NCBI RefSeq assembly: GCF_016785945.1
Contig: NZ_JAEMEF010000002.1
Span: 1 to 64,000 of the forward strand
From: Olleya sediminilitoris
GTDB taxonomy: Bacteria; Bacteroidota; Bacteroidia; Flavobacteriales; Flavobacteriaceae
Direction of reading: 5' to 3'
Length of the DNA stretch: 64,000 nt
Of the stretch, positions 26,185 to 59,635 are shown in pieces; the first letter of the stretch is position 1, and each line of letters begins with the position of its first letter. Made by a program: the position numbers and the translations under genes. The notes under the pieces were generated by a model that was not told the origin of the DNA, ran no database searches, and was given only the letters and a program-made list of their open reading frames with translations.

Positions 26185-26862
26185 TTATTCAATATGTTTT
26201 AAAGCCTCTAAATTTTCAATTTTTATTAGTTTCCCTTTAGTACTTATTAAACCTTCCTTTTTAAACTGAGATAAAATTCTAATTGCACTTTCGGTAGCAG
26301 TACCAACAATACTTGCATAATCATCTCTAGATAGTGTTAAGGATAAATACCCATTGTTATCTATTCCAAATTTATTATTGACATATATTAAAGTTTCAGC
26401 TAAACGTTGTTTTACAGATTTTTGTGCCATATCTACAATACTATTATCTGCATTCTTTAAATCTAAAGCCATTCTTTTTAATACGTCCATACTAAAATCA
26501 ACATTAGTATGTAAATCATGTAAGATTTCTTGTTTAGGTATAAAACAGACTTGCATATCGTTAATTGCCACAGCTTTTAAATTAGAAGACTGACCACTAA
26601 CTAAAGTGCGTTGTCCCATCATACCTCCTTTAATTACTAATTTTACAACTTGATCCTTACCATTTTTGCTTAATTTAGTCATTTTACAAACGCCTTCTCT
26701 CACGCAATAAATACCATTTAAAATATCACCTTCATCAAAAATAACATCTCCTTTTTTTATGAATTTTGTTATTTTACATGCAGAGACTCGCATTAATTCT
26801 TCTTTAGTTAAGGTCTTTAAACTATTAAATTGCCTAACAATACATTGTTCACATTTACTCAT
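26185..26862 (-). CDS. Crp/Fnr-family regulator Crp1 (Fnr-like)
   Basis: A 225-residue Crp/Fnr protein: N-terminal Cys pair (Cys4, Cys7, then Cys29), cyclic-nucleotide-type beta-roll (~30-120), dimer helix, and C-terminal winged helix (LSRDDYASIVGTATESAIRILSQF). Ungapped alignment with the E. coli CRP recognition helix puts Thr190, Glu191 and Arg195 at CRP positions 180, 181 and 185. Glu plus Arg fits a TGA half-site, and lack of Arg180 fits no need for G at position 5. The Cys cluster might hold an Fe-S or redox centre, which is unproven. It is divergent from ccoI and is the inferred reader of the nATGA-N6-TCATn operators. Confidence 0.85.
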   Translation of the reverse strand: MSKCEQCIVRQFNSLKTLTKEELMRVSACKITKFIKKGDVIFDEGDILNGIYCVREGVCKMTKLSKNGKDQVVKLVIKGGMMGQRTLVSGQSSNLKAVAINDMQVCFIPKQEILHDLHTNVDFSMDVLKRMALDLKNADNSIVDMAQKSVKQRLAETLIYVNNKFGIDNNGYLSLTLSRDDYASIVGTATESAIRILSQFKKEGLISTKGKLIKIENLEALKHIE

Positions 26863-26906
26863 ACCTTAATTTGTTGGAAGTTTACCAAAAGTTTGTAATA
26901 TCTAAC

Positions 26907-26950
26907 ATGACAAATATCATATAATAAAAGCGCTTAAAATGTAACCTTTG
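26907..26950 (+). promoter_or_regulatory. ccoI promoter: Crp1-type operator plus -7 box
   Basis: Operator ATGACAAATATCAT (26907-26920, centre 26913.5); box AACCTTTG (26943-26950, one mismatch in TA). The centre-to-box distance is 29.5 bp, as at the other respiratory promoters. The start codon is 22 bp beyond the box. Confidence 0.7.
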
Positions 26951-26955
26951 TTACA
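26940..26955. promoter_or_regulatory. Perfect Crp2-type palindrome covering the ccoI core promoter
   Basis: TGTAACCTTTGTTACA has perfect 6-bp arms in the TGTAA-N6-TTACA pattern. It is centred on the -7 box rather than upstream of it, so binding would block RNA polymerase. Repression is inference. Confidence 0.55.
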
Positions 26956-26972
26956 GGTAAAAAGAGCAAATT

Positions 26973-29345
26973 ATGGATTATAAAGTATGTTATCATTGTG
27001 GAGATAATTGTACAGAAACCACTATTATTTTAGAAGATAAACCCTTTTGTTGTCAAGGTTGTAAAACAGTTTATGAGATTTTGTCAGAAAGCGATTTAAC
27101 GTGTTATTATGACCTACAGTCTTCTCCAGGCGCTATTCCAAAAGAAATTGAAGGTAAATACGATTTTTTATCTCAAGAAAAAATTATTGAAAAGTTAGTC
27201 GAGTTTTCAGATGATAAAACTCAGATTGTAACACTTTATATTCCGCATATACATTGTAGTTCTTGTATTTGGATTTTAGAAAACCTCAATAAATTAAATA
27301 CAGCCATAACTTTATCGCAAGTTAATTTTGGAAAAAAAACAGTAAGAGTTTCTTACAATACCGAAGCATTTTCGCTTAAACAATTGGTCCTTCTATTAAG
27401 CTCAGTTGGTTATGAGCCATATATTAGTTTAGACGATTATGAAACAGGTCAAGAAAACGTAAATCGTAGTTTAATTTACAAACTAGGTGTCGCAGGATTT
27501 GCTTTTGGAAATGTTATGTTTTTGTCGTTTCCGGAGTATTTTGAGGTTAACGAGTTTTGGTTAGAACAATACAAACATGTTTTTAGATGGGTAATGTTTG
27601 CGTTTTCATTACCTGTAGTGTTTTATGCTGCACAGGATTATTTTGTATCAGCTTACAAAGCAATAAAAACTAAAATATTAAACATTGATATTCCTATAGC
27701 TCTTGGTATAGTTGTTTTATTTATAAGAAGTACTGCCGAAATAGCTTTAGACCTTGGTTCTGGTTTTTTTGATAGTCTAACAGGATTAGTTTTCTTTTTA
27801 TTATTAGGAAAGTTTTTTCAGCAAAAAACCTATTCTTTTTTATCCTTTGAGCGTGACTACAAGTCCTATTTTCCTATTGCAATTACTAAAATAACCAATG
27901 GTTTAGAAACACCTGTTCAGGTATATGATATCCAAAAAGGAGATCGACTTTTAATAAGAAATCAAGAGTTGATACCTGTTGATGGTATTTTAATTAACGG
28001 AAACGCTAAAATAGATTACAGCTTTGTAACAGGAGAGTCTGAAGCTGTAAAAAAACAATCTGGAGATAAGTTATTTGCTGGTGGTAAGCAAACCTCAGGA
28101 GTTATTGAAATGGAAGCTATTAAGTCTGTTGAACAAAGTTATTTAACGCAATTATGGAGTAATGATGTATTTAATAAAAACAAAGAGGATGGATTTACAA
28201 CGTTAACTAATGCTATTAGTAAACGTTTTACAATAGCAGTTTTAAGTATTGCATTTATTGCTACAATAGTATGGTTATTTTTAGATAGTAGTAAAGCTTT
28301 AAATGTATTTACAGCGGTTTTAATTATTGCATGTCCTTGTGCAATTGCTTTATCTGCACCTTTTACTTTTGGGAATTTATTACGAATTTTAGGAAAGAAA
28401 AAATTCTACTTAAAAAATGCATCAGTTTTAGAGCAATTAGCACATGTTGATACATTAATTTTTGATAAAACAGGAACTATAACTTCTAACAAAAAAAGTG
28501 ATGCTCAATATGAAGGTTTACCATTAAACCAAACGGAAGAAACATTACTTAAAAATACTTTAAGAGGATCTAATCATCCTTTAAGTAGAAGTTTATATGA
28601 TATTTTAAAGGAAAATGCTATTGTTACTTTAGATAGTTTTGAAGAACACTTAGGACAAGGTATTGAAGCGACTCATAATACTAACCACATTAAAATAGGG
28701 TCTGCTAAATTTGTAGGTTTTAAAACCGAAACAGCTATACTAAATACAGCTGTACATATTAGTACTAATGATAGTTATAAAGGTAAATTTACTTTTTATA
28801 ACAGTTATCGTAAAGGCTTATCAAAGTTGTTTAATACTTTAAAAAAGCATTATGATTTAGTGATTCTTTCGGGAGATAATGAAGGCGAATTAGAAAACTT
28901 GAAAAAACTACTTCCAGCAAAAACAAAGTTACTTTTTAATCAAAAACCAGATGATAAGCTAGAGTATATTAAATACCATCAATCTGAAGGAGCTAAAGTG
29001 TTAATGGTTGGAGACGGTTTAAACGATGCTGGAGCTTTGGCACAAAGTAATGTTGGTATAGCAATATCCGAAAATGTTAATGTGTTTTCGCCTGCTTGTG
29101 ATGCCATTTTAGATGCAAGTAAGTTTAATCAGTTAGATCAATATATTAAGGCTTCTAAAAGTGCTATAAAAATTATAAAATGGAGCTTTGTATTGTCTTT
29201 TTGTTACAATGTTGTGGGATTATATTTTGCGGTTACTGGTCAATTAGCTCCTGTTATAGCTGCTATTTTAATGCCTTTAAGTTCTATTAGTATTGTAGTG
29301 TTTACAACATTAGCTACAAATTTGATTGGACGACGATTGCAGTAG
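26973..29345 (+). CDS. ccoI: Copper-transporting P1B-type ATPase CcoI for cbb3 oxidase assembly
   Basis: A 790-residue P-type ATPase. It starts with a Cys-rich metal-binding domain (CYHCGDNC, CCQGCK), then a degenerate HMA domain (IPHIHCSSCIWILENL, ~89-150), membrane helices, a TGES loop, the CPC ion-transfer motif (ACPCAIALSAP, ~453), phosphorylation DKTGT (~497) and GDGLNDAGAL. It supplies copper for the CuB centre of cbb3 oxidase. It is next to the cco operon but has its own operator-bearing promoter. Confidence 0.9.
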   Translation: MDYKVCYHCGDNCTETTIILEDKPFCCQGCKTVYEILSESDLTCYYDLQSSPGAIPKEIEGKYDFLSQEKIIEKLVEFSDDKTQIVTLYIPHIHCSSCIWILENLNKLNTAITLSQVNFGKKTVRVSYNTEAFSLKQLVLLLSSVGYEPYISLDDYETGQENVNRSLIYKLGVAGFAFGNVMFLSFPEYFEVNEFWLEQYKHVFRWVMFAFSLPVVFYAAQDYFVSAYKAIKTKILNIDIPIALGIVVLFIRSTAEIALDLGSGFFDSLTGLVFFLLLGKFFQQKTYSFLSFERDYKSYFPIAITKITNGLETPVQVYDIQKGDRLLIRNQELIPVDGILINGNAKIDYSFVTGESEAVKKQSGDKLFAGGKQTSGVIEMEAIKSVEQSYLTQLWSNDVFNKNKEDGFTTLTNAISKRFTIAVLSIAFIATIVWLFLDSSKALNVFTAVLIIACPCAIALSAPFTFGNLLRILGKKKFYLKNASVLEQLAHVDTLIFDKTGTITSNKKSDAQYEGLPLNQTEETLLKNTLRGSNHPLSRSLYDILKENAIVTLDSFEEHLGQGIEATHNTNHIKIGSAKFVGFKTETAILNTAVHISTNDSYKGKFTFYNSYRKGLSKLFNTLKKHYDLVILSGDNEGELENLKKLLPAKTKLLFNQKPDDKLEYIKYHQSEGAKVLMVGDGLNDAGALAQSNVGIAISENVNVFSPACDAILDASKFNQLDQYIKASKSAIKIIKWSFVLSFCYNVVGLYFAVTGQLAPVIAAILMPLSSISIVVFTTLATNLIGRRLQ

Positions 29346-29436
29346 GTTTTAAAGTAGAAAAACAGTCTCCATTAGTAGAAGAAACGTTTAGAGTTAGGGC
29401 ATAAGTTTCGGTATGAAAAAACGACTTATGGCTGTA

Positions 29437-29450
29437 TTTCCGCGAAAGCG
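29437..29450 (+). repeat. 14-bp motif TTTCCGCGAAAGCG, inverted copy at 35727
   Basis: The motif recurs in opposite orientation at 35727-35740, so one copy lies on each side of the cco operon. The core CGCGAAAGCG is itself partly palindromic. The surrounding 220-bp gap (29346-29565) otherwise holds only the ccoS promoter. Confidence 0.6.
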
Positions 29451-29500
29451 AAAAACAATCTTAAAATAATCTTAATTTTTTTTGATAAATCTGCTTAAAC

Positions 29501-29544
29501 ATGATAAATGTCATCTTTTAAAAAGCCCTTCTAATTTACTTTTG
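29501..29544 (+). promoter_or_regulatory. cco operon promoter: Crp1-type operator plus -7 box
   Basis: Operator ATGATAAATGTCAT (29501-29514, centre 29507.5); box TACTTTTG (29537-29544). Spacing is 29.5 bp and the ccoS start is 21 bp beyond the box. Confidence 0.85.
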
Positions 29545-29565
29545 TAACATAACTTCTTAATAGGT

Positions 29566-29760
29566 ATGAGTGTTATTTATATTTTACTTACGGTCAGTGT
29601 CATAGTGGCAATAGGCTTTTTTGCAGCGTTTATTCTGGCTGTTAAAAATGGACAATTTGATGATGGGTATACACCATCTGTACGTATGCTTTTTGATGAC
29701 GAATTGGTTAAAAGCAAACACACACTAACAAAAAACAATAAAAAGACTAATCACAATTAA
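29566..29760 (+). CDS. ccoS: cbb3 oxidase assembly protein CcoS
   Basis: A 64-residue protein with one membrane helix (residues ~3-25) and the CcoS/FixS signature AVKNGQFDDGYTPSVRML. It is needed for cofactor insertion into cbb3 oxidase. It is the first gene of the cco operon and ends 2 bp before ccoN. Confidence 0.9.
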   Translation: MSVIYILLTVSVIVAIGFFAAFILAVKNGQFDDGYTPSVRMLFDDELVKSKHTLTKNNKKTNHN

Positions 29761-29762
29761 TT

Positions 29763-31961
29763 ATGGAAATGCAGCAATTTTATTACGATAACAAGATCGT
29801 TAAAAAGTTTCTTTATGCTACTATGCTCTGGGGAGTTGTAGGTATGCTTGTAGGGCTTATTTTAGCGTTCATGTTTTTATTCCCAAACATGACTGATGGG
29901 ATTTCATGGCTAAGCTTTGGTCGTTTAAGACCGTTACACACTAATGCAGTAATTTTTGCATTTGTTGGTAATGCTATTTTTGCAGGAGTGTATTACTCGA
30001 CGCAACGTTTACTTAAGGCTAGAATGTATAGCGATTTATTAAGTAATATTAATTTTTGGGGTTGGCAGTTAATTATTGTTGGTGCTGCTATTACATTACC
30101 TTTAGGTTATTCTACTTCAAAAGAATATGCAGAACTTGAATGGCCTTTTGATATTGCTATTGCTTTAATTTGGGTAGCTTTTGGAGCTAATTTAATTGGT
30201 ACAATGCTAAAACGTCGTCAACGTCATTTATATGTTGCGATTTGGTTTTACATAGCAACGTTTGTAACGGTTGCAGTTTTACATATTTTTAATAGTTTAG
30301 AGATGCCTGTAAGTTTTACAGGAATGAAAAGTTACTCGGTTTACGCAGGTGTACAAGATGCCTTAGTACAATGGTGGTATGGTCATAATGCGGTTGCGTT
30401 TTTCTTAACGACTCCATTTTTAGGGTTAATGTACTACTTTGTGCCTAAAGCAGCAAACAGACCTGTTTACTCTTACAGATTATCTATTGTACACTTTTGG
30501 TCTTTAATATTTATATATATATGGGCTGGACCACACCATTTATTATATACCGCTTTACCAGAATGGGCTCAGAATTTAGGAGTTGCATTTTCAGTAATGC
30601 TACTAATGCCATCTTGGGGAGGAATGATAAATGGGTTATTAACACTTCGTGGTGCTTGGGATAAAGTACGTGTTGATCCTGTACTTAAATTTATGGTAGT
30701 AGCTATTACTGGTTATGGTATGGCAACCTTTGAAGGACCAATGTTATCGCTTAAAAATGTAAATGCAATTGCACACTTTACAGATTGGATTATTGCACAC
30801 GTACACGTTGGTGCATTAGCATGGAATGGGTTTTTAACTTTTGGTATGATTTATTATCTAGTACCAAAATTATTTAAAACTAAATTATACTCTTTAGCAT
30901 TGGCTAACCTTCACTTTTGGATAGGAACTTTAGGTATTATCATGTATGCATTACCAATGTACGTAGCTGGATTTACACAAGCTAGTATGTGGAAGCAATT
31001 TAATCCAGATGGAAATATAAAATACGGTAATTTCCTTGAAACAGTAACCGAGATTATGCCAATGTATTGGATGCGTGCTATTGGAGGAACATTGTATTTA
31101 ACAGGAATGCTAATTTTAGTATTTAACGTTATTCAAACTATAAGAAAAGGAAGCACTGTTGAAGATGAACTAGCAGAAGCTGCTGCATTACAACGTGTGT
31201 CTAAAAAACGTGTCGCTGGAGAAGGATGGCACACCTGGTTAGAACGTAAACCAATTAGATTAACAATTGGAGCAACTATAGCTATTTTAATTGGTGGTGT
31301 AGTGCAAATTGTACCAACTATAATGGTTAAGTCTAATATTCCAACAATTAGTAGTGTTCAACCTTATTCGCCTTTAGAATTAGAAGGTCGTGATATTTAT
31401 ATACGTGAAGGTTGTGTTGGGTGTCACTCGCAAATGGTACGTCCTTTTAGAAGTGAGGTAGAGCGTTATGGCGAGTACAGTAAAGCAGGAGAGTTTGTCT
31501 ATGATCATCCATTTTTATGGGGAAGTAAACGTACTGGACCAGATTTACATCGTGTAGGAGGAAAGTACTCAGATAACTGGCACTTTAACCACATGTACGA
31601 TCCTCAAGCGATGAATAAAAAGTCAATTATGCCAAGATATCAATGGTTAATTGAAGATGAACTTGATAAATCTCAAATTGAAGATAAAATGAGAGTTATG
31701 GTGTCGTTAGGTGTACCATATACAGAAGAAGATATTGCTAATGCTAAAGCAGAAATGTTAGCACAAGGAACACAAATAGAGAAAAACCTATACACAGATC
31801 CTGATTTTGCAAAGTCTTATGAAGCTAGTAAGAAAAAAGGTGGAGATGATTTTGTAGAAATGAGAAACAGAGAGATTGTTGCTGTAATAGCTTACCTGCA
31901 ACGTCTGGGAACAGATATTAAAGTAGAACAAACAGAAGAAGAAACAACAGTACAAAACTAA
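29763..31961 (+). CDS. ccoN: Fused cbb3 cytochrome oxidase subunits CcoN-CcoO
   Basis: A 732-residue fusion. The first ~470 residues are the 12-helix heme-copper subunit I (RPLHTNAVIFAFVGN, WWYGHNAVAFFLT, HVHVGALAWNGF). After a short linker the CcoO part follows: one membrane helix and a membrane-bound cytochrome c domain with CVGCHSQMVRPF at about residue 550. The complex reduces O2 at low tension. The N-O fusion is usual in Bacteroidetes, while separate genes are the rule in Proteobacteria. Confidence 0.93.
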   Translation: MEMQQFYYDNKIVKKFLYATMLWGVVGMLVGLILAFMFLFPNMTDGISWLSFGRLRPLHTNAVIFAFVGNAIFAGVYYSTQRLLKARMYSDLLSNINFWGWQLIIVGAAITLPLGYSTSKEYAELEWPFDIAIALIWVAFGANLIGTMLKRRQRHLYVAIWFYIATFVTVAVLHIFNSLEMPVSFTGMKSYSVYAGVQDALVQWWYGHNAVAFFLTTPFLGLMYYFVPKAANRPVYSYRLSIVHFWSLIFIYIWAGPHHLLYTALPEWAQNLGVAFSVMLLMPSWGGMINGLLTLRGAWDKVRVDPVLKFMVVAITGYGMATFEGPMLSLKNVNAIAHFTDWIIAHVHVGALAWNGFLTFGMIYYLVPKLFKTKLYSLALANLHFWIGTLGIIMYALPMYVAGFTQASMWKQFNPDGNIKYGNFLETVTEIMPMYWMRAIGGTLYLTGMLILVFNVIQTIRKGSTVEDELAEAAALQRVSKKRVAGEGWHTWLERKPIRLTIGATIAILIGGVVQIVPTIMVKSNIPTISSVQPYSPLELEGRDIYIREGCVGCHSQMVRPFRSEVERYGEYSKAGEFVYDHPFLWGSKRTGPDLHRVGGKYSDNWHFNHMYDPQAMNKKSIMPRYQWLIEDELDKSQIEDKMRVMVSLGVPYTEEDIANAKAEMLAQGTQIEKNLYTDPDFAKSYEASKKKGGDDFVEMRNREIVAVIAYLQRLGTDIKVEQTEEETTVQN

Positions 31962-31967
31962 ACTATC

Positions 31968-32159
31968 ATGTTAAAATTTGTAAAAAATCATTTAGAAAGT
32001 ATTACTGGTGTAGAGATATATCCAATCCTTTCATTACTTATATTCTTTGGCTTTTTTGTAGTACTTTTTTGGTGGGTTATTACTGCCAAAAAAGACTACA
32101 TCACTAAAGTAAGTAATATTCCATTAGAATTAGATAACCAAAACGAAACCGAAATATGA
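31968..32159 (+). CDS. ccoQ: cbb3 oxidase subunit CcoQ
   Basis: A 63-residue protein with one membrane helix (IYPILSLLIFFGFFVVLFWW) and a KKDYITKVSNIPLE tail typical of flavobacterial CcoQ. It stabilises the oxidase. It overlaps ccoP by 4 bp. Confidence 0.82.
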   Translation: MLKFVKNHLESITGVEIYPILSLLIFFGFFVVLFWWVITAKKDYITKVSNIPLELDNQNETEI

Positions 32160-41020: not shown

Positions 41021-41064
41021 CAAAATTAGGTGGTTTTAATAAAGTAGTATATGACAAATATCAT
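41021..41064 (-). promoter_or_regulatory. hemN promoter: Crp1-type operator plus -7 box
   Basis: Operator ATGACAAATATCAT on the plus strand (41051-41064, centre 41057.5), identical to the ccoI site. Minus-strand box TAATTTTG (41028-41021). Spacing is 29.5 bp and the start codon is 19 bp beyond the box. Confidence 0.87.
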
Positions 41065-43919: not shown

Positions 43920-43958
43920 TTTATCAAGCAGTTTTACTATAACTATTGGTTAACTTTA
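43915..43958 (+). promoter_or_regulatory. Candidate crp2 promoter with a compact Fnr-like palindrome
   Basis: TTGATTTATCAA (43916-43927, centre 43921.5) lies 29.5 bp upstream of box TAACTTTA (43951-43958), like the other promoters. Its TGA and TCA halves are only 4 bp apart instead of 6, so it is not a standard member. It overlaps the mtfA stop codon. Confidence 0.4.
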
Positions 43959-43975: not shown

Positions 43976-44608
43976 ATGTTAGAGCAGTTACAGCAACACT
44001 ATGGGTATTTGTTTGAAGATGAATTGATTCAAGAAATAAATAATGTTGGGACATATAAAGATATATCTGAAGGTTTTAAATTAATTGAAATTGGAGACTA
44101 CATCAAGTCTATGCCACTTTTAGTTAGTGGAGCAATTAAAATTTTAAGAGAAGATAAAGATGGTGACGAGTTAATTTTGTACTTTATAGAACAAGGTGAT
44201 ACCTGTGCTATGACATTATCTTGCTGTTTAGGAAATTCTAAAAGTGAAATAAGAGCTATTGCAGAAACAGACACCAAATTAATTATGGTTCCGGTAGCTA
44301 AAATGGAGGAGTGGTTAGGTAAGTACAAAAGTTGGAGACAATTTGTATTGCAAAGCTATCATAATCGTATGTCAGAACTGCTTGAGGCTATTGATACTAT
44401 TGCATTTTTGAAAATGGACAAACGTCTGTTTAAATATCTAAAAGACAAAGCAATGGTTAATCATAACGAGTTAATACACGTTACACATCAAGAAATTGCT
44501 AGAGATTTACATACCTCTAGAGTTGTTATTTCTAGGCTTTTAAAAACATTAGAGCTTGAGGGTAAAATTGAATTACATCGAAATAATATCAAAGTTATAG
44601 ATTTATAA
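43976..44608 (+). CDS. Crp/Fnr-family regulator Crp2, inferred activator of the sulfur/cytochrome bd regulon
   Basis: A 210-residue Crp/Fnr protein. I chose ATG 43976 (MLEQLQQHYGY) because a -7 box at 43951-43958 falls inside the longer TTG-started frame from 43946. It has a beta-roll sensor domain with Cys77 and a vicinal Cys83-Cys84 (TCAMTLSCCLG), then a winged helix whose sequence aligns without gaps to CRP residues ~169-208. Arg182, Val183 and Arg187 match CRP R180, E181 and R185. Val at 181 predicts a TGTAA half-site, which is what the downstream promoters carry. The vicinal Cys may sense persulfide or redox state, which is inference. Confidence 0.85.
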   Translation: MLEQLQQHYGYLFEDELIQEINNVGTYKDISEGFKLIEIGDYIKSMPLLVSGAIKILREDKDGDELILYFIEQGDTCAMTLSCCLGNSKSEIRAIAETDTKLIMVPVAKMEEWLGKYKSWRQFVLQSYHNRMSELLEAIDTIAFLKMDKRLFKYLKDKAMVNHNELIHVTHQEIARDLHTSRVVISRLLKTLELEGKIELHRNNIKVIDL

Positions 44609-44611: not shown

Positions 44612-44656
44612 TGTAACTTATGTTACTATATATGCTAATTAGGATAATTACTTTTG
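44612..44656 (+). promoter_or_regulatory. tauE promoter: Crp2-type operator plus -7 box
   Basis: Operator TGTAACTTATGTTACT (44612-44627, centre 44619.5), starting 4 bp after the crp2 stop; box TACTTTTG (44649-44656). Spacing is 29.5 bp. Confidence 0.87.
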
Positions 44657-45475: not shown

Positions 45476-45520
45476 TGTAACAAAAGTTGCTGTACAAACT
45501 TAAAAACATTAGTAAATTTG
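45476..45520 (+). promoter_or_regulatory. Persulfide dioxygenase promoter: Crp2-type operator plus -7 box
   Basis: Operator TGTAACAAAAGTTGCT (45476-45491, centre 45483.5), starting directly after the tauE stop; box TAAATTTG (45513-45520). Spacing is 29.5 bp. The leader of about 70 bp is longer than at the other promoters of the set. Confidence 0.87.
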
Positions 45521-47068: not shown

Positions 47069-47113
47069 TGTAACAAAAGTTACTAATAATACGTCCTGTA
47101 TTTATTAATTTTA
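47069..47113 (+). promoter_or_regulatory. Rhodanese operon promoter: Crp2-type operator plus -7 box
   Basis: Operator TGTAACAAAAGTTACT (47069-47084, centre 47076.5); box TAATTTTA (47106-47113). Spacing is 29.5 bp and the start codon is 17 bp beyond the box. Confidence 0.87.
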
Positions 47114-47801: not shown

Positions 47802-48800
47802 ATGAAAAAAGTAATTGCATTTGGAGTATTAATAGTTGTGTTTTTTGGTTGTAAAAACACAAAAAATGAAGCTTATTCTGTATTTGACAAGCAAATGGAA
47901 GCTAATAAGCATCCAGAAAAAAAATTAATGGAAATTAATTGTTATACCTGTCACAGTCTATCTGCTAGTCAATCAGATAGGATTGGACCACCAATGATTG
48001 CTATTAAAAAGCATTACATTGACGAAAATACAACTAAAACACAATTTGTAGAAAATATGCAATCATGGATTAAAAATCCAAATGCACAAGATGCTAAAAT
48101 GTATGGTGCAGTAAAACGTTTTGGTGTTATGCCTAAACAGTCCTTTCCAGAAGAAACTATTGCTAAAATTGCCGAGTATATGTTTGACTATGAAATTGAT
48201 CAGCCAGAATGGTTTGAAAAACATTATAATGAAGAAAAAGGTGATTTTAAAAGTAATGGAAAAGGAAAAAAAAGTACTATTGATCAACAACAAGTCGAAA
48301 ATAGTATAGAAGAGTTACCATACGCAGAAAGAGGTTTAAAATACGCCTTAACAACAAAAGCGGTATTAGGAAAAAATCTAATGGGTACTATTCAAAAAAA
48401 AGGAACTTTAGAAGCATTAGCTTTTTGTAATGAAAAAGCCTATCCATTAACGGATAGTATGTCTGTAGTGCATAATGCATCAATTAAAAGAGTGTCTGAT
48501 AAACCAAGAAATCAAAATAATTTAGCAAATAAAAAAGAATTAACGTATATTAATTCTTTTAAAAACGATATTAAAAATAATACAGAACCAAAACCAATAG
48601 TTGATGTTTTAGAAGATAAAGTACAGGTTTATTATCCAATAAAAACAAACGCAATGTGCTTGCAATGTCATGGTAAACCAAATCAAGATATAAAAAGACC
48701 TATATTAAAGAGCCTTGCTAATTTATATCCTGATGATAAGGCTGTAGGTTATGATTTAAATCAAGTTAGAGGGATTTGGAGTATTAGTTTTGATAAATAA
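47802..48800 (+). CDS. Lipoprotein with cytochrome c domain fused to a DUF3365 (Tll0287-like) heme domain
   Basis: A 332-residue lipoprotein (lipobox Cys17). Residues ~30-135 form a class I cytochrome c (heme motif Cys47-Tyr-Thr-Cys50-His51, axial Met in FGVMPKQSF). A Gly/Lys-rich linker leads to a DUF3365 domain (~165-330; KRVSDKPRNQNN, then heme motif CLQCHG at about 286). DUF3365 proteins bind heme c and are thought to sense redox state or small ligands. It is probably a periplasmic two-heme carrier or sensor within the sulfur operon. Confidence 0.82.
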   Translation: MKKVIAFGVLIVVFFGCKNTKNEAYSVFDKQMEANKHPEKKLMEINCYTCHSLSASQSDRIGPPMIAIKKHYIDENTTKTQFVENMQSWIKNPNAQDAKMYGAVKRFGVMPKQSFPEETIAKIAEYMFDYEIDQPEWFEKHYNEEKGDFKSNGKGKKSTIDQQQVENSIEELPYAERGLKYALTTKAVLGKNLMGTIQKKGTLEALAFCNEKAYPLTDSMSVVHNASIKRVSDKPRNQNNLANKKELTYINSFKNDIKNNTEPKPIVDVLEDKVQVYYPIKTNAMCLQCHGKPNQDIKRPILKSLANLYPDDKAVGYDLNQVRGIWSISFDK

Positions 48801-49714: not shown

Positions 49715-49758
49715 CTGATATATGTCATATTAATTATGAAAGTACAGTAGTAATTTTA
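49715..49758 (+). promoter_or_regulatory. Small membrane protein promoter: Crp1-type operator plus -7 box
   Basis: Operator CTGATATATGTCAT (49715-49728, centre 49721.5); box TAATTTTA (49751-49758). Spacing is 29.5 bp and the start codon at 49790 is 31 bp beyond the box. Confidence 0.78.
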
Positions 49759-49789: not shown

Positions 49790-49939
49790 ATGATACTTCA
49801 AAACATTGCATTATATAATTGGAACAACGGAGTAATTATGATTGCTATATTTGCTCTTGTTTGTTTAGGGCTTATTGGTTTATTAGTAAGCTCTATGACA
49901 AATAGTGACAGAGATAAAGAAGAGCCTAAAGAAAGGTAA
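49790..49939 (+). CDS. 49-residue single-pass membrane protein, probable respiratory accessory
   Basis: The frame runs from ATG 49790 to TAA 49937-49939 and gives 49 residues: a short N-terminus (MILQNIALYNWNNG), one hydrophobic helix (residues ~15-35) and a charged tail ending DRDKEEPKER. A Crp1-type operator with correctly spaced -7 box lies upstream and a strong terminator downstream, so it is a real single-gene transcript. Its size and control resemble small oxidase subunits such as CcoQ, CcoS or CydX, but it lacks their motifs. Confidence 0.72.
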   Translation: MILQNIALYNWNNGVIMIAIFALVCLGLIGLLVSSMTNSDRDKEEPKER

Positions 49940-52743: not shown

Positions 52744-52808
52744 TTATAGTAGTATTATATTTAACTTCTGTGTTTGGGGTAGATCAACTACCTATACTAA
52801 AAGATAAA

Positions 52809-53186
52809 TTATACCTGTGGAGGATGGAAACAATCGTTAATACTGCTAAACGAATACAGGTTTTGGTAAATCGAAGTATTTTGTTTTTTTAGATCGTTTT
52901 TGTGTTTAAATGCTAATTTTTCTGTGGTTAGCGTAAATAAAAGAAGCTCTTTAAAATCGACTATATTTTCTGGTGTATTTTGCTCTTTATCTAATGATTT
53001 TGAAACCTTTTTTAAATGACATTTACCATTACATTGTAACTCAGGTTTATCTTTATTAACACACAAAGCTTCAATAAAACCTATAGGATCTAGTTTATAA
53101 TAGGCATAAGTTAAGGAGACTCTTGTACTATTAAATAGTATAAGAGTGGTTACACTTAAAGTGAATATATAAGTACTCATTTTCAT
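52809..53186 (-). CDS. Small Cys-rich protein encoded with the copper receptor
   Basis: About 125 residues from ATG 53186 (MKMSTYIF; 53180 is the alternative). It has one N-terminal membrane or signal helix, then CVNKDKPELQCNGKCHLKK, a C-x8-C-x3-C-H cluster suited to binding copper, and a C-terminal CFHPPQV. Similar short proteins sit beside TonB receptors in Flavobacteria; I recall no proven function. The predicted -7 box is 6-12 bp from the start, so the mRNA may be almost leaderless or the start may lie further in. A role as periplasmic copper acceptor is inference. Confidence 0.65.
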   Translation of the reverse strand: MKMSTYIFTLSVTTLILFNSTRVSLTYAYYKLDPIGFIEALCVNKDKPELQCNGKCHLKKVSKSLDKEQNTPENIVDFKELLLFTLTTEKLAFKHKNDLKKQNTSIYQNLYSFSSINDCFHPPQV

Positions 53187-53191
53187 TAGTG

Positions 53192-53235
53192 TAAAAATAA
53201 AATAACAGTGTGTCATAAAAGGTGACATTTGTTAC
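53192..53235 (-). promoter_or_regulatory. Copper-receptor unit promoter: hybrid Crp operator plus -7 box
   Basis: GTGACATTTGTTAC on the plus strand (53222-53235, centre 53228.5) has one TGA half and one TTACA half. The minus-strand box is TATTTTTA (53199-53192). Spacing is 29.5 bp. Confidence 0.7.
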
Positions 53236-53298
53236 ATTACAGCAGATTTTAGTTGATAGCTAAATCTTATTTTAATATAAGCTTAAGATATTGTTTAA

Positions 53299-53342
53299 GT
53301 GACAAATGTTACACATAGCCACAGCCTTCTAAAGTAATTTTA
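53299..53342 (+). promoter_or_regulatory. Peroxiredoxin promoter: hybrid Crp operator plus -7 box
   Basis: GTGACAAATGTTAC (53299-53312, centre 53305.5) combines a TGA left half with a TTACA right half. Box TAATTTTA (53335-53342). Spacing is 29.5 bp and the start codon is 29 bp beyond the box. Confidence 0.83.
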
Positions 53343-53371
53343 CAGTATCAATAAATTAAAATATATATACT

Positions 53372-54094
53372 ATGAATACATTAGAAACAACACAACAAGA
53401 AGTTTTCGCAATGCCAAGAATTGGTGACAAAGCACCAGAATTTAAAGCAGTAACAACACAAGGAGATATTAATTACCCATCGGATTATAAAGGAAAATGG
53501 TCTATACTATTTAGTCATCCAGCAGATTTTACGCCTGTTTGTACCTCTGAGTTTATGACATTTGCGCATTTAGAAGAAAAATTTGAAAAAGCAAATTGTA
53601 GTTTAATAGGATTGTCTATTGACGGTCTGTACAGTCATATTGCTTGGTTAAGAACGATTAAAGATAAAATTGAATTTAATGGGATGAAAGACATTGAAGT
53701 TAAATTTCCTTTAATAGAAGATATCTCCATGGAAGTTGCTAAAAAATACGGAATGATTCAACCAGGAGAAAGTAAAACACAAGCCGTAAGAGCTGTCTTT
53801 TTTGTTGATCCAAATGAAACTGTTAGAGCTATCATTTATTATCCATTAAGCTTAGGACGTAACTTTGATGAACTTTACAGAGCATTAATAGCTATGCAAA
53901 CCTCAGACAAATTTAATGTAGCCACTCCTGCAGATTGGAATCCTGGAGATGATGTTATTGTATCACCAGCAGGTTCTTGTGGTGTTGCAGAAGAGCGTAT
54001 GACGTCTACAGAAGATCTAGATTGTAAAGACTGGTTTTTCTGTACTAAAAAATTAGATAAAGATTTAGTATTGGATTCAATCTTAAAAAAGTAA
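53372..54094 (+). CDS. Peroxiredoxin (Prx6/AhpC-TSA type)
   Basis: A 240-residue peroxiredoxin. The peroxidatic Cys is in DFTPVCTSEF (about residue 57) and the Arg in the AVRAVFFVDP region. The long C-terminal domain of the Prx6 group is present, with extra Cys in SPAGSCGVAEE, DLDCKDWFFCTKK. It reduces H2O2, peroxynitrite or persulfides. Its promoter carries a hybrid Crp1/Crp2 operator and it ends before a terminator. Confidence 0.9.
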   Translation: MNTLETTQQEVFAMPRIGDKAPEFKAVTTQGDINYPSDYKGKWSILFSHPADFTPVCTSEFMTFAHLEEKFEKANCSLIGLSIDGLYSHIAWLRTIKDKIEFNGMKDIEVKFPLIEDISMEVAKKYGMIQPGESKTQAVRAVFFVDPNETVRAIIYYPLSLGRNFDELYRALIAMQTSDKFNVATPADWNPGDDVIVSPAGSCGVAEERMTSTEDLDCKDWFFCTKKLDKDLVLDSILKK

Positions 54095-54107
54095 GTCAAT
54101 TACATTT

Positions 54108-54136
54108 AAAAAGAGCCTTTTATTAAGGCTCTTTTT
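54108..54136 (+). terminator. Terminator after the peroxiredoxin gene
   Basis: The arms AAAAAGAGCC (54108-54117) and GGCTCTTTTT (54127-54136) enclose a 9-base loop and end in T. It abuts the cydA operator. Confidence 0.9.
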
Positions 54137-54181
54137 TGTAATATAAGTTACATAATAATTAAGCGTTGTGTCGTATTTTTG
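54137..54181 (+). promoter_or_regulatory. cydAB promoter: Crp2-type operator plus -7 box
   Basis: Operator TGTAATATAAGTTACA (54137-54152, centre 54144.5); box TATTTTTG (54174-54181). Spacing is 29.5 bp and the start codon is 18 bp beyond the box. Confidence 0.88.
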
Positions 54182-54199
54182 TATTAAAATAAATAAGCT

Positions 54200-55546
54200 A
54201 TGGATACCGAAATTTTAGCCAGAATTCAATTTGCCTTCACCATTGCCTTTCATTATATCTATCCTCCATTAAGTATTGGTATAGGTTTGATCATGGTTAT
54301 TATGGAAGGACTATATCTTAAAACAGGAAATAAGCATTATGAAGTATTAACTCGCTTTTGGTTAAAAATCTTTGCTATAACTTTTGGTATTGGTGTCGCA
54401 ACAGGTATTATTATGGAGTTTGAGTTTGGTACCAATTGGGCAGTATATTCAAGATATGTTGGTGATATTTTTGGAAGCGCTTTAGCAGCCGAAGGTTTAT
54501 TTGCATTTGGATTAGAAAGTGCCTTTTTAGGAGTTTTAATTTTTGGATGGAATCGTGTATCTCCTAGAGTACATTTTATATCTACAATTGGTGTTTTTCT
54601 TGGTTCCATGTTTTCGGCAGTTTGGATTGTAGTAGCTAATAGTTGGCAACAAACACCAGCTGGTTATCATATAGTTGGCGAAGGATTTAATGCTAGAGCA
54701 GAAGTGACAGACTTTTGGGCAATGGTTTTTAATCCATCTAGTGTAGATAGGATTATTCATGTTTGGCAAGGCGCATTTTTAGCAGGTGCGTTTTTAGTTT
54801 TAAGTGTGCATGCTTACTATTTACTTAAAGGTCGATATGTTGAAATTTCAAAAAAAGCATTTAAAATTGCTTTAGGTTTGGCAACTATTATATCATTAAC
54901 TCAATTACTTTCAGGGCATAGTTCGGCAGATGGTGTGGCTGTAAATCAGCCAGCAAAATTAGCTGCTATGGAAGGGCATTATGACAAATCTGCACCTGCT
55001 GATTTATACTTGTTTGGTTGGGTAAATGATAAAACGCAAGAAGTGACAGGTATTGGTATACCAGGAGGTTTGTCTTTTTTGGTACATCAAGATTTTGAAG
55101 CTCCAATTACTGGATTAAATGCTTTTCCAGAAGAGGATAGACCAGGTCAAGTAAATGCAGTGTTTCAATTTTATCATATTATGATTTCTATAGGTATGTT
55201 TTTAATTGGATTAACATTATATGCTTCGTTTTTATGGTGGAAAGGAACATTATTTGAAAAACGATGGTTATTAAAAATCTTTGCATTTTCAGTGTTACTA
55301 CCACAAATAGCAAATCAAGTCGGATGGTTTGCTGCAGAGATGGGACGTCAACCATGGATTGTTTATGGACATTTAAGAACAAACGAAGGATTTTCGCAAG
55401 AAGTGTCTTCTAATCAAATTTTATTCTCTTTAATTTTATTTTTAGTAGTCTATGCTATATTATTTTTGTTATTTATCTATTCTTTAAATAAAAAGATAAA
55501 ACACGGACCATATGATGAAGCTAATAATACACTAGACATTATTTAA
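54200..55546 (+). CDS. cydA: Cytochrome bd quinol oxidase subunit I
   Basis: A 448-residue membrane protein with nine helices. It starts with ARIQFAFTIAFHYIYPPLSIG, which holds the heme ligand His, and has the GRQPWIVYGHLRT region and a short Q-loop form (HSSADGVAVNQPAKLAAMEGHYD). It oxidises menaquinol and reduces O2 with high affinity without pumping protons. Cytochrome bd lacks copper and resists sulfide and NO. It is the first gene of the cydAB operon. Confidence 0.95.
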   Translation: MDTEILARIQFAFTIAFHYIYPPLSIGIGLIMVIMEGLYLKTGNKHYEVLTRFWLKIFAITFGIGVATGIIMEFEFGTNWAVYSRYVGDIFGSALAAEGLFAFGLESAFLGVLIFGWNRVSPRVHFISTIGVFLGSMFSAVWIVVANSWQQTPAGYHIVGEGFNARAEVTDFWAMVFNPSSVDRIIHVWQGAFLAGAFLVLSVHAYYLLKGRYVEISKKAFKIALGLATIISLTQLLSGHSSADGVAVNQPAKLAAMEGHYDKSAPADLYLFGWVNDKTQEVTGIGIPGGLSFLVHQDFEAPITGLNAFPEEDRPGQVNAVFQFYHIMISIGMFLIGLTLYASFLWWKGTLFEKRWLLKIFAFSVLLPQIANQVGWFAAEMGRQPWIVYGHLRTNEGFSQEVSSNQILFSLILFLVVYAILFLLFIYSLNKKIKHGPYDEANNTLDII

Positions 55547-55556
55547 ACAAACACTT

Positions 55557-56594
55557 ATGGAAACAATATTAGGTATAGATTATCCAACACTTTGGTATTT
55601 AGTTGTCGGCTTATTATTTTCGGGTTATGCTATTTTAGAAGGGTTTGATTATGGTGCTGGTGCTTGGCACTTATTTTTAAAAAAAGACTTAAGTCGTCGT
55701 ATTGCAATTAATGCTATTGGTCCATTGTGGGACGCAAATCAAGTGTGGTTAATTATTGGTGGAGGCGCCTTATTTGCAGGATTTCCTGTTATGTATGCTA
55801 CTATGTTATCGGCAATGTATATACCTTTTATGTTGTTTTTAATGCTTTTAGTGTTAAGATCTTCTGCTATAAAATTTAGAAGTGCTGAAGATATGACTTG
55901 GTGGCGAAAAACATGGGATATTATTTATTTTGTTTCCAACACGTTAATAGCTTTTTTATTAGGTGTTGTCTTAGGTAATGTTTTGCAAGGTTTTGAATTA
56001 GGAGAAAACTTGACCTATCAAGGTGGTATTTTCTTCTCATTTTTAAGTCCTTATGCTATTATGGTTGGTTTTACAACATTATCTATTTTTATGACACAAG
56101 GTGCAATTTTTTTATTACTAAAAACGGAAGGTCGTTTGCATGCTAGATTAACGTTTTTGCTAAAAAAAGGAATGATTTTCTTTATTATAAGTTTTGCAGT
56201 AACATCATTATATACTTTGACTTTTTTACACGGAGTTACAGATAAATTTAAAGAAAACCCTGTGTTTTTTGCATTACCTATTCTAGCTTTTTTAGCAGTA
56301 GCCAATGTACCTAGATTAGTGTCTAAGAAAAAATATGCTAATGCTTTAGTTTTTTCATCTTTAACTATGGCTTTTTTATTAATGTTAGTTGCTTTTCAAT
56401 TATATCCAGTATTATTACCTTCGACTATAGACCCTAAATACAGCGTAACTATATACAATGCAGCGTCTTCGCAAAAGTCACTGGGTATTATGTTAACTAT
56501 TGTGGCTATTGGAGCACCATTATTAGCTGGTTATTTCTTGTTTTTATATAAAACATTTCATGGTAAAGTAAAATTGGACGATACTAGTTACTAG
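55557..56594 (+). CDS. cydB: Cytochrome bd quinol oxidase subunit II
   Basis: A 345-residue CydB with about nine helices and the N-terminal signature LWYLVVGLLFSGYAILEGFDYGAG, followed by GPLWDANQVWLIIGGGALFAGFP. It forms the second half of cytochrome bd with CydA and starts 10 bp after it. No CydX-like gene follows directly; the next transcript is that of the SQR. Confidence 0.95.
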   Translation: METILGIDYPTLWYLVVGLLFSGYAILEGFDYGAGAWHLFLKKDLSRRIAINAIGPLWDANQVWLIIGGGALFAGFPVMYATMLSAMYIPFMLFLMLLVLRSSAIKFRSAEDMTWWRKTWDIIYFVSNTLIAFLLGVVLGNVLQGFELGENLTYQGGIFFSFLSPYAIMVGFTTLSIFMTQGAIFLLLKTEGRLHARLTFLLKKGMIFFIISFAVTSLYTLTFLHGVTDKFKENPVFFALPILAFLAVANVPRLVSKKKYANALVFSSLTMAFLLMLVAFQLYPVLLPSTIDPKYSVTIYNAASSQKSLGIMLTIVAIGAPLLAGYFLFLYKTFHGKVKLDDTSY

Positions 56595-56597
56595 TTA

Positions 56598-56642
56598 TGT
56601 AACATAAGTAGCTGTGCAGGTTTTAAGTATATAATATCTTTA
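56598..56642 (+). promoter_or_regulatory. SQR promoter: Crp2-type operator plus -7 box
   Basis: Operator TGTAACATAAGTAGCT (56598-56613, centre 56605.5; good left half, weaker right half) starts 3 bp after the cydB stop. Box TATCTTTA (56635-56642). Spacing is 29.5 bp. Confidence 0.8.
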
Positions 56643-56659
56643 TTTAAAATTCACAGATT

Positions 56660-58117
56660 ATGTCTAAAATCGTCATTTTAGGAGCCGGAATTTCTGGTCA
56701 TGTAGCAGCTTCTCATTTAAGAAGAAAACTATCTAAAGATCACGAAGTTGTTGTGGTATCTCCTAACACTAATTACCAATGGATTCCTTCCAATATTTGG
56801 GTTGGAATTGGTAGAATGAAATCAAAAAAAATCTTATTACCATTAGCTCCTTTATACAAAAAGAAAGGAATAGGTTATAAACAAGCTAAAGCAATTTCGT
56901 TTTTTCCTGAAGGCGATAAAAATGAGGATAAACCATATGTTTTATCAGAGTATGTCGCAGGAGCTAATAAAGGTCAACAAGAAAAAATAACTTACGATTA
57001 TTTAATTAATGCTACTGGACCAAAATTAAATTTTGAAGCGACAGAAGGCTTAATTCCGGGACAAAATAAAACCTATTCTGTTTGTACTTATACACATGCA
57101 GACCATGCTTGGGAAGGTTTAAATGAAGTTATTCAGCAAATGAAAGCTGGTAAAAAAGCTAAAATATTGATTGGTACAGGACACGCAAAATCAACTTGTC
57201 AAGGTGCTGCGTTTGAGTATATTTTAAATGTAGAACAGGAGTTGCGTAAGCACAATGTACGCGATATGGCAGAAGTCACTTGGATTTCTAACGAATACCA
57301 ATTAGGCGATTTTGGGATGGATGGTATGTTGTTAAGCTACGGAAGCATGACCATGAAATCTCATGAAATGGTCGAAATGATTTTTGAAGATAGAGACATC
57401 AAGTGGATATTAGGAGCAGGTGTTAATAAAATTGAAGATGGTATTGCCCATTATGAAAACTTGGAAGGAGAATATAAGACTGAAACTTATGATTTTGCAA
57501 TGTTAATTCCATCATTTTCTGGTCATGGTTTTAAAGCTTTTGATAAAAATGAAAATGACATCACAGAAAAACTATTTAAAGGGTTTATGATTGTAGATGC
57601 CGATTATACAACAAAACCATACGAAGAATGGTCTGTAAAAGATTGGCCAGAAACGTATCAAAACCCAAGTTATAAAAATATTTTTGCTCCAGGAATTGCA
57701 TTTGCGCCTCCACACGCCATTTCTAAGCCAAGAACTAGCAAAAACGGAACAGTTATTTCGCCAGCACCTCCACGTACAGGTATGCCCTCTGGTATTACTG
57801 CCAAATTGGTCGCAGATAATATTATTGACTCTATTAAAAGTGGATCAGAGTCATTACATCACAAGGGAAGTTTAGGTAATATGGGAGCAGCATGTATTGC
57901 TTCTGCTGGTTACGGAATGACAAAGGGAAGTGGCGTTAGTATTACCACGTTTCCTATTGTTCCTGACTACGAAAAATATCCAAAAACACAAGGTAGACAA
58001 TTAGGAAAAACTTTTGGAGAAATTGGTTTAGCAGGACATTGGTTAAAACTAGTATTGCACTATGCGTTTATCTATAAAGCAAAAATGAAACCTTTTTGGT
58101 GGTTGATTCCAGAATAA
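56660..58117 (+). CDS. sqr: Sulfide:quinone oxidoreductase-type flavoprotein
   Basis: A 485-residue FAD-dependent disulfide-reductase-family protein: N-terminal Rossmann motif VILGAGISGHVAASHL, NYQWIPSNIWVGIGRM, the DYLINATGPKLNFEAT segment, Cys in TYSVCTY and STCQGAAFEYI that are placed like SQR redox Cys, and a C-terminal amphipathic, Trp-rich anchor (YKAKMKPFWWLIPE). It moves electrons from sulfide to menaquinone and makes persulfide for the dioxygenase at 45592. Its length fits the longer SQR types. Confidence 0.85.
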   Translation: MSKIVILGAGISGHVAASHLRRKLSKDHEVVVVSPNTNYQWIPSNIWVGIGRMKSKKILLPLAPLYKKKGIGYKQAKAISFFPEGDKNEDKPYVLSEYVAGANKGQQEKITYDYLINATGPKLNFEATEGLIPGQNKTYSVCTYTHADHAWEGLNEVIQQMKAGKKAKILIGTGHAKSTCQGAAFEYILNVEQELRKHNVRDMAEVTWISNEYQLGDFGMDGMLLSYGSMTMKSHEMVEMIFEDRDIKWILGAGVNKIEDGIAHYENLEGEYKTETYDFAMLIPSFSGHGFKAFDKNENDITEKLFKGFMIVDADYTTKPYEEWSVKDWPETYQNPSYKNIFAPGIAFAPPHAISKPRTSKNGTVISPAPPRTGMPSGITAKLVADNIIDSIKSGSESLHHKGSLGNMGAACIASAGYGMTKGSGVSITTFPIVPDYEKYPKTQGRQLGKTFGEIGLAGHWLKLVLHYAFIYKAKMKPFWWLIPE

Positions 58118-58218
58118 GCAAAGTGCACTTTTTTTTTTGCTATATATCACTTATTGTGAAAATTTAAGAAGAGATGTAGGATTAAATGAAAATTTATAAG
58201 AATTAAATAATTACTAAA

Positions 58219-58356
58219 ATGACAGAAAGAATATCAAAATATCAAAGATTTAAAATGATGAATCCAATCATTCAGTTTTTTAAATTCATTTATTTAAGTA
58301 TAAAAATAATGGTTGTTGTAGCAGGAGGACATGGTGGTACTAGAAAAGTTAACTGA
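58219..58356 (+). CDS. 45-residue protein with a conserved-looking AGGHGGTR tail
   Basis: The frame runs from ATG 58219 to TGA 58354-58356. A basic N-terminus (MTERISKYQRFKMMNP) is followed by one amphipathic or membrane helix (IIQFFKFIYLSIKIMVVV) and the C-terminal AGGHGGTRKVN. The stop codon lies inside the stem of a terminator, a compact arrangement expected for a real gene. Similar short proteins seem familiar from Flavobacteria, but I know no function. It follows the SQR gene by 101 bp and may be in its transcript. Confidence 0.5.
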   Translation: MTERISKYQRFKMMNPIIQFFKFIYLSIKIMVVVAGGHGGTRKVN

Positions 58357-58375
58357 TTTGGTTATCAGTTTTTCC
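58351..58375 (+). terminator. Hairpin terminator overlapping the end of the 45-residue ORF
   Basis: The arms AACTGAT (58351-58357) and ATCAGTT (58364-58370) are followed by TTT and a T-rich stretch. It separates this ORF from the convergent YdjM-like gene. Confidence 0.65.
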
Positions 58376-58379
58376 TTTT

Positions 58380-59378
58380 TTAATTCCCTTTCACACGTTG
58401 CCAAAGTTCTGATAACAGCTTTTTACCGTCATTAGAATCTTTTGGAGCTTCAATAAATGAAACTTTACCAGAAGGATCAACATCTAATTTGTATTTAAAA
58501 ACAAAACTGTCTGATTTTGGTTTTAAACTTAATAATCCAAAACGTAAATCGTTAAAATAAAGGGTGTTTTCTGTTTTAGTAATTGTGTACCAACCTTCCG
58601 TAATGGCAATCATTTGCTTTACACTTTTATCTTCAACAAGACTACCTAATAAGTAGTGTTTTTTTGGATAGCTTTCAAAAGTGATTGGTTGGCTGTCAAA
58701 AAACGAATAATTCCCCAATAAATAAGCATCTTCAGTTTGCACATTAGCGCTCCAAAGTATGGTATTTAATGCAGATGGTCTAGTATCAATATCTAAATAA
58801 GCTATGTTTTGGTCTTTTAAAGCAGATTCAAATTTTGTGTAAGCTGCCCATTTTATAAGTAGCGTAATGGCTAAGTACGTCGTACTTATTATTAATCCCA
58901 TATTGTTATAAAAACGTCGTTTTGCAGTGGTCCGTTTTTGACGCATCGCCAAAATTAAAAATATCAGAAAAGGGACTGTGTACAATGGGTCAACTACAAA
59001 TATGTTTTTAAAGGCTAATCGTAAATCAAAAGGCCAAAATAGTTGTGTTCCCCAAGTAGTGTGTGCATCTAATATAGGATGAGTTACAAAAGCTAAAAAG
59101 AATAGCCAAGTCCAGTTTTTAAAGTTTTTATAGGTTTCGTAACGCGTGACAATCCAAGTTAAAATAGGGGCAAACAGCACAGAAAACACAATAGAATGCG
59201 TAAATCCACGATGTACATAAAGTGCTGTAACACTGTCCGTAAAAAAAGAGGCTAAAACATCTAAATCCGGAATGGTTCCTGCAATAGCACCATAAAGCAT
59301 GGCTTTATTTCCAATTTTTCTACCTAAAACAGCTTCGCCTACAGCTGCTCCTAATACTATTTGTGTTAATGAATCCAT
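58380..59378 (-). CDS. YdjM-like membrane-bound metal-dependent hydrolase
   Basis: A 332-residue protein with about five membrane helices. The start MDSLTQIVLGAAVGEAVLGRK and the motifs GTIPDLDVL, HRGFTHSI and FVTHPILDAHTTWG are those of the YdjM/DUF457 family with metal-binding His and Asp. The C-terminal ~130 residues form an extra periplasmic beta-domain. The substrate is not known, though the family is linked to phospholipase-type activity. It is alone on the minus strand; the 276-bp gap upstream (59379-59654) otherwise holds only the RND operon promoter. Confidence 0.8.
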   Translation of the reverse strand: MDSLTQIVLGAAVGEAVLGRKIGNKAMLYGAIAGTIPDLDVLASFFTDSVTALYVHRGFTHSIVFSVLFAPILTWIVTRYETYKNFKNWTWLFFLAFVTHPILDAHTTWGTQLFWPFDLRLAFKNIFVVDPLYTVPFLIFLILAMRQKRTTAKRRFYNNMGLIISTTYLAITLLIKWAAYTKFESALKDQNIAYLDIDTRPSALNTILWSANVQTEDAYLLGNYSFFDSQPITFESYPKKHYLLGSLVEDKSVKQMIAITEGWYTITKTENTLYFNDLRFGLLSLKPKSDSFVFKYKLDVDPSGKVSFIEAPKDSNDGKKLLSELWQRVKGN

Positions 59379-59590
59379 ATAGCATGCAAAAGTAAGAGAT
59401 ACTAATTTATTTATAACAAGACTTCGGTTTTATGTTGTTTTTTGGGTGCTTAATAAAAATTAATCATTAGTGTTGTTTGTGCAATTGTTTAACAGTCAGT
59501 GTTTTGTATGATAATTATCAGTGTGTATACTTTTCATTTATTCTAAATTTATAACTATTGAAGGTGTCTTATTTCAAATTACTTTTCTTA

Positions 59591-59635
59591 AGTAACCTAT
59601 GTTACTAACTAAAGTAAATTCCTGAACTATTTTTG
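59591..59635 (+). promoter_or_regulatory. RND efflux operon promoter: Crp2-type operator plus -7 box
   Basis: Operator AGTAACCTATGTTACT (59591-59606, centre 59598.5, perfect arms); box TATTTTTG (59628-59635). Spacing is 29.5 bp and the start codon is 19 bp beyond the box. Confidence 0.87.

Follow-up and report, generated by a model that had tools for sequence, protein, structure and literature searches.

We describe two sets of putative operators for transcription regulators of the Crp/Fnr family in the first 64,000 nucleotides of contig NZ_JAEMEF010000002.1 of Olleya sediminilitoris (hereafter the window). The explanation that we favour, and hold to be probable, is that the regulator Crp2 is a local class II activator working through GTAAC-N4-GTTAC sites, its Val183 going with A:T in the operator, and that the regulators Crp1 and Crp3 go with ATGA-type sites. 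Crp2 would most likely activate genes for sulfide and persulfide disposal (tauE, pdo, a rhodanese gene and sqr), together with the linked oxidase and stress genes cydAB, prx and tolC. Its binding sites would be the GTAAC-N4-GTTAC copies centred near -41.5, whose distance to the Bacteroidota -7 box is fixed. Val183 of Crp2 takes the place of Glu181 of CRP and goes with A:T, not G:C, at position 7 of the half-site.

The crp2 gene (43976..44608, plus strand; an alternative TTG start at 43946 is possible) encodes a protein with Arg182-Val183 and Arg187 at the places of CRP residues 180, 181 and 185, and its recognition helix aligned without gaps to those of Vfr (SRE) and NtcA (TRV). At the same places Crp1, an FNR-like regulator encoded on the minus strand (26185..26862), has Thr190-Glu191 and Arg195. 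The coordinates and residue numbers given for both proteins in a first-pass annotation of the window were correct. Both carry cNMP_binding and HTH_Crp_2 domains above the Pfam cut-offs and thus belong to the CRP/FNR superfamily. The nearest named homologue of Crp2 found is from Olleya marilimosa (95% identity). There are four HTH_Crp_2 matches in the 3.42 Mb genome. Crp3 (contig C10, 349 amino acids) joins a response regulator to a Crp protein in one chain, with receiver, cNMP and HTH domains, and its helix GIATETLIRTM has a Thr-Glu-x3-Arg identical to that of Crp1. Crp4 (locus L029) is of a truncated-wing type with Arg-Glu at the contact places. Among the Crp1-type helices printed for relatives, 27 of 30 have Thr-Glu.

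Seven genes in the window are preceded by a putative GTAAC-type operator with a TAnnTT box 29 bp from its centre. The sites before tauE (44613..44626, box TACTTTTG), the rhodanese gene (47070..47083, TAATTTTA) and the tolC-like gene (59592..59605, TATTTTTG) are perfect, those before pdo (45477..45490, TAAATTTG) and cydAB (54138..54151, TATTTTTG) have one mismatch, and that before the sqr-like gene (56599..56612, TATCTTTA) has two. The seventh, before a peroxiredoxin gene (prx; 53299..53312, TAATTTTA), is a hybrid, GTGAC-N4-GTTAC. The pdo product combines MBL-fold and rhodanese domains and is persulfide dioxygenase-like. We use pdo, sqr, tolC and ccoI as gene names on the strength of family matches that are either below the cut-off or general, and ccoS on place alone. 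The first-pass annotation had sorted the operators into two sets, most of which are as it described, with the core of the second being GTAAC-N4-GTTAC instead of TGTAA-N6-TTACA. It had not listed the prx site or a perfect site in the ccoI promoter (26941).

The distance from these sites to the promoter is fixed. TAnnTT begins exactly 29 bp from the site centre in all seven cases, and the chance of this is about 2e-11 for genes chosen after the fact, since in these intergenic regions 2.9% of positions carry TA..TT. Sites of class II activators are centred near -41.5. Crp2-type sites look like such sites, judged by their constant distance to the -7 box, which is kept at the seven genes and is not found at 26941. 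Of four further GTAAC site-gene pairs in the window, those of ccoI, crp1 and, measured from 53299, a gene for a 139-amino-acid protein have no box at 29 bp. This uncharacterised gene diverges from prx, and the region between them (53222-53312) holds two GTGAC/GTAAC hybrid sites; the one at 53222 has a box at 29 bp on the side of the 139-amino-acid gene, but it overlaps that gene's start codon. Among relatives, the window included, the box starts at 29 bp in 55 of 133 site-gene pairs. A set of 80 named loci contains 159 exact sites; 78 of these have the box at 29 bp, and no other offset has more than six. Genes in the fetched loci are longest-ORF calls, with neighbours named by BLAST to the window genes, so distances to the ATG are approximate. 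TAnnTTTG is the -7 consensus described for Bacteroidota in excerpts of PMC7366714.

The sites are also more frequent than expected. Compared with 100 dinucleotide shuffles, the window contains 47 matches to GTAAC-N4-GTTAC with up to two mismatches (31 shuffled; 1 of 100 shuffles as high) and 138 to TGTAA-N6-TTACA (108 shuffled; none as high). Exact copies of GTAAC-N4-GTTAC number eight in the genome, and the reversed control five. Four of the eight lie in the window, all of them before genes, and three of the four outside it lie inside ORFs. The binomial probability of the window's share is 8e-6, calculated post hoc.

The first-pass annotation had suggested testing whether residue 181 and operator covary across Flavobacteriaceae, and our comparison supports covariation across families and classes: where the CRP-181 place holds Val, operator position 7 is usually A:T, and where it holds Glu, usually G:C. 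Searches for Crp2 homologues gave a match in 191 of 296 genomes from the order (at E ≤ 1e-15) and in 117 of 296 in a sample of the phylum (at E ≤ 1e-18). From the score-ranked matches listed, 140 loci were picked by hand and are not a random sample. A Crp2 match was present in 138 of them, with Val at 181 in 83, Glu in 54 and Ala in one; a further 80 named close relatives all have Val. We left out L142 and L229 (no Crp2 match), L223 (Ala181), and L092 and L127 (two Crp2-like genes that disagree). The window is excluded from the half-site scan and the position-7 counts, with or without the box filter, and included in the per-gene promoter counts, the agreement of tree and loci, and the spacing and cysteine counts.

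All 1024 five-base half-sites were scanned in the intergenic DNA of the first 80 fetched loci. In the 58 Val-type loci GTAAC-N4-GTTAC was far on top, with 55 exact sites in 34 loci (shuffles 0.0). The 21 Glu-type loci had one exact GTAAC site; with up to one mismatch GTGAC (8) and GTAAC (7) led there, both with 0.0 in shuffles and both drawn largely from hybrid sites. A pattern that leaves position 7 free, GT.AY-N4-RT.AC, was then applied to 135 loci. In the 81 Val loci, 70 of 99 sites were AA and 12 had G at half-site position 7. In the 54 Glu loci, G was present in 42 of 48 sites (AA 3, AG 21, GG 19). Shuffled totals were 11.65 and 7.05 sites, respectively. A Fisher test that ignores kinship gives 2e-19 for the difference in G, which persists when a -7 box at 28-30 bp is required (7 of 68 Val sites, 23 of 26 Glu sites). 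A quick tree of Crp2, made after masking the helix, requires eight changes at residue 181, three of them forced by supported branches. Residue and operator type agree in 64 of the 72 loci with sites, and independent pairs, of which there are three, were on average 2.6 concordant and 0 opposite. The claim that Crp2 is a natural E181V-type variant reading A at position 7 is supported as an association but not as a strict code.

Several observations weigh against our interpretation. Eight of the 72 loci disagree: seven Val loci have G (L110, L114, L115, L119, L124, L179 and L187) and one Glu locus has A only (L214). With only three independent pairs, significance is out of reach (p 0.25). No site of the form GT.AY-N4-RT.AC was found nearby in 65 of 137 rows, including most of a second Val clade (TARVVVSR type), where only L157 and L230 have sites, both A-type. 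Counting sites with up to one mismatch and position 7 free, Val-type loci have one before pdo in 26 of 35 cases, before tauE in 13 of 29 and before tolC in 8 of 8, but before the rhodanese gene in only 3 of 23; the Glu-type figures are 9 of 10 for pdo, 3 of 5 for tauE and 0 of 5 for rhodanese. In two Glu loci, L125 and L197, a single perfect GTAAC-N4-GTTAC persists and is accompanied by a -7 box. A genome that keeps the TGTAA sites although its only Crp2 orthologue has Glu had been named in advance as a counter-example, and L125 is such a case (one Crp2-like match at E ≤ 1e-15), but three other sites there contain G. Finally, where one genus has both Val and Glu types beside pdo, the two belong to lineages that separated deep in the tree, on one tree whose bootstrap had not settled, so more than one residue differs and others could matter. 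Many Glu181 operators are hybrids, GTAAC on one side and GTGAC on the other, which makes the operator a graded trait.

The exceptional Val loci L110, L115 and L124 fall in one clade (L109-L124) that keeps the Arg-Val helix and has mixed operators. In L115 the pdo gene is preceded by GTGACTAAAGTCAC and a -7 box; sites like it are present in L110 and L124. The pdo promoters of L110, L115, L120 and L124, all with Val181, have GTGAC-type sites, and a Glu lies a few residues before the helix; IAED or ISED precedes the helix in all nine rows printed for the clade. We dropped the idea that the exceptions are due to a close Glu181 paralogue: a search of 12 genomes with a Glu-type Crp2, including those of six of the seven exceptional Val loci (not L119), found none, with more distant Crp proteins not excluded. 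Beyond the known Crp2-like matches it returned three weak ones (E 3e-8 to 6e-8) in G436 and G088.

Crp1, with Thr-Glu at the contact places, goes with ATGA-N6-TCAT sites, which lie at its own gene, at hemN and at the cbb3 oxidase genes. Exact matches lie between crp1 and a ccoI-type P-ATPase gene (ATGAC-N4-ATCAT, 26907..26920, with no TAnnTT at +29 on either side), before a ccoS-like small gene and ccoNO (ATGAT-N4-GTCAT, 29501..29514, TACTTTTG at +29) and before hemN (ATGAT-N4-GTCAT, 41051..41064, read on the minus strand, TAATTTTG at +29). A site with one mismatch, CTGAT-N4-GTCAT (49715..49728, TAATTTTA at +29), precedes a 49-amino-acid ORF (49790-49939) with one hydrophobic stretch. All four had been noted before. 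A weaker site assigned to a usp gene in the window was dropped, as its best candidate has three mismatches in eight positions. With up to one mismatch, ATGA-N6-TCAT occurs 59 times in the window (43 shuffled; 0 of 100 shuffles as high). ATGAC-N4-GTCAT with up to two mismatches showed no excess there (25 against 22.6; 36 of 100 shuffles as high). Genome-wide, neither ATGAY-N4-RTCAT (30 against 37 in the reversed control) nor its composite with a -7 box, with up to one mismatch (19/13 against 18/15 reversed), was enriched, so the ATGA set rests on position and conservation.

Conservation of these sites is seen in relatives, where 25 of 29 crp1 loci have an exact ATGA-N6-TCAT in intergenic DNA. 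At crp1/ccoI the site is rarely accompanied by TAnnTTTG at 29 bp (2 forward and 3 reverse among the 25). Past the ATPase gene, an ATGA-type site with a -7 box at 29 bp is present in 6 of 6 relatives, one of the six sites beginning CTGA. In a half-site scan of the 29 loci ATGAC had 21 matches with up to one mismatch, against 1.0 in mononucleotide shuffles; TTTTT (83/15.7), GTAAA (35/5.7) and AGGAA (17/0.7) also exceeded theirs, so the control is weak. Elsewhere in the genome, two usp genes that neighbour crp3 are preceded by ATGATAAAAATCAT sites, and both sites have a TAnnTT at 29 bp. The crp3 locus (L028:1295-3481, C10 of this genome) adjoins a PAS histidine kinase gene and has these two usp genes nearby. 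Crp3, having the contact residues of Crp1, probably shares its ATGA sites, and there are therefore at least two possible readers of the set. The proposed association of Crp1 with ATGA sites is supported.

Could another Crp/Fnr protein, Crp3 or Crp4, read the GTAAC operators, the link to Crp2 being mere neighbourhood? The genome offers four HTH_Crp_2 proteins, Crp4 keeps Arg-Glu, and operators are not A-type in 7 of 45 Val loci. We nevertheless find this very unlikely: half of the perfect sites in the genome are found in the 33 kb around crp2, 64 of 72 loci have the operator type expected from their Crp2 residue, and Crp1 and Crp3 have Thr-Glu helices with ATGA sites beside both. A stronger alternative, which we still consider unlikely, is that the covariation reflects shared ancestry, with Crp2 lineages inheriting their operators and residue 181 being carried along with many other differences. 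The tree shows strong clustering of Val and Glu, independent pairs are few, and the L109-L124 clade retains its Arg-Val helix despite mixed operators. Against this, A-type sites occur in separate Val clades, and a Glu row with a GG operator (L186) sits inside a Val group. Residue 181 is moreover a known contact position, and its correlation with operators is reported for other Crp/Fnr proteins in excerpts of PMC1274295.

A further question concerns the perfect GTAAC-N4-GTTAC at 26941..26954, in the ccoI/crp1 intergenic region (26863-26972). A -7 box at +29 is lacking in both directions, the centres of this site and the ATGA site are 34 bp apart, and the GTAAC site lies over TAACCTTTG, the putative -7 region of the ccoI-type P-ATPase promoter. 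The pair of sites is common to G599 (L311). Crp2 might cover the -7 region here as a repressor and so link both regulons, which is possible but doubtful: in the 260 bp next to crp1, none of the other 28 crp1 loci has a perfect copy, and the site could be chance, shared by two close relatives. The two regulons had been proposed to be insulated by one or two residues, and this is not supported. Crp3 has the contact residues of Crp1 and ATGA sites beside it, both types of site occur in the ccoI promoter, some GTGAC pdo sites are present in a Val181 clade in which no close Glu181 paralogue was found, and two Glu181 loci retain perfect GTAAC sites with a -7 box.

Both proteins resemble known regulators. 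Crp2 shares its domain make-up and helix frame with E. coli CRP and Vfr. CRP has Glu at 181, TGTGA sites and a class II position of -41.5. Crp2 scored 56.5 bits with the NCBIfam equivalog for cAMP-type CRP, below the cut-off of 266. NtcA of cyanobacteria has the same Arg-Val...Arg helix, and its sites are of the GTA-N8-TAC type, but Crp2 reaches only 46.8 bits against a cut-off of 244.95 and the genes differ. Crp1 is like E. coli FNR in lacking Arg at 180, having Glu at 181, and in its TTGA-like (ATGA) sites and cbb3-type targets. Among NCBIfam models Crp1 matches FNR best, with 92.9 bits, short of the subfamily cut-off of 228. FNR binds its 4Fe-4S cluster through an N-terminal C-x2-C-x5-C motif. 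Crp1 has Cys4 and Cys7, then Asn13 for the third cysteine, and its sites have A, not T, at position 5, unlike the FNR site.

The residue-operator code is not new, because a correlation of residues 180 and 181 with operator bases across the Crp/Fnr family (PMC1274295, 2005) and a relation of helix residues to motifs in alphaproteobacteria (PMC2908626, 2010) precede it, as excerpts of both papers describe. According to the former, HcpR2 has the motif GTAACnnnnGTTAC and usually Pro at 181, with Ser and Gln in three species. Crp2-type sites match the GTAACnnnnGTTAC operator, but HcpR2 is tied to hcp, and Crp2 has Val183 in place of Pro and sits with sulfide and persulfide genes. Crp2 is a well-supported new case of the known code. 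As far as the literature was searched, the additions are the Val case beside Bacteroidota sulfide genes, the operators of hybrid type and the constant spacing to the promoter. No paper describing a sulfide/persulfide Crp regulon was found in the open-access literature, with subscription papers mostly outside the search.

Crp2 has cysteines at 77, 83 and 84. Among 139 aligned homologues Cys77 is present in all, Cys83 in 91 and Cys84 in 78, and all three occur in 18 of 18 close relatives aligned. Since Cys77 is invariant and the target genes concern sulfur, we guess that Crp2 senses thiols or persulfides, perhaps via Cys77. Within the sulfur gene group, 47802-48800 encodes a protein with Tll0287-like and weak cytochrome c domains, relatives of which lie near crp2 in several fetched loci.

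From the sequence evidence, a Crp-type protein probably reads the fixed-position, activator-like sites of sulfide-detoxification genes. Marine flavobacteria thus probably have a sulfide/persulfide regulon, controlled by a Crp-type protein in which one cysteine is invariant. The fixed promoter geometry helps to filter true sites, and the loci provide a large natural data set for testing joint change of a transcription factor and its operators. More tentatively, and with somewhat less than an even chance of being right, we suggest that across Bacteroidota a homologous link from Crp to pdo and tauE has repeatedly switched between Glu and Val as the recognition residue, hybrid operators readable by either type forming the bridge. 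If true, hybrid GTAAC/GTGAC sites would let regulator and operators change while the link between them is kept.

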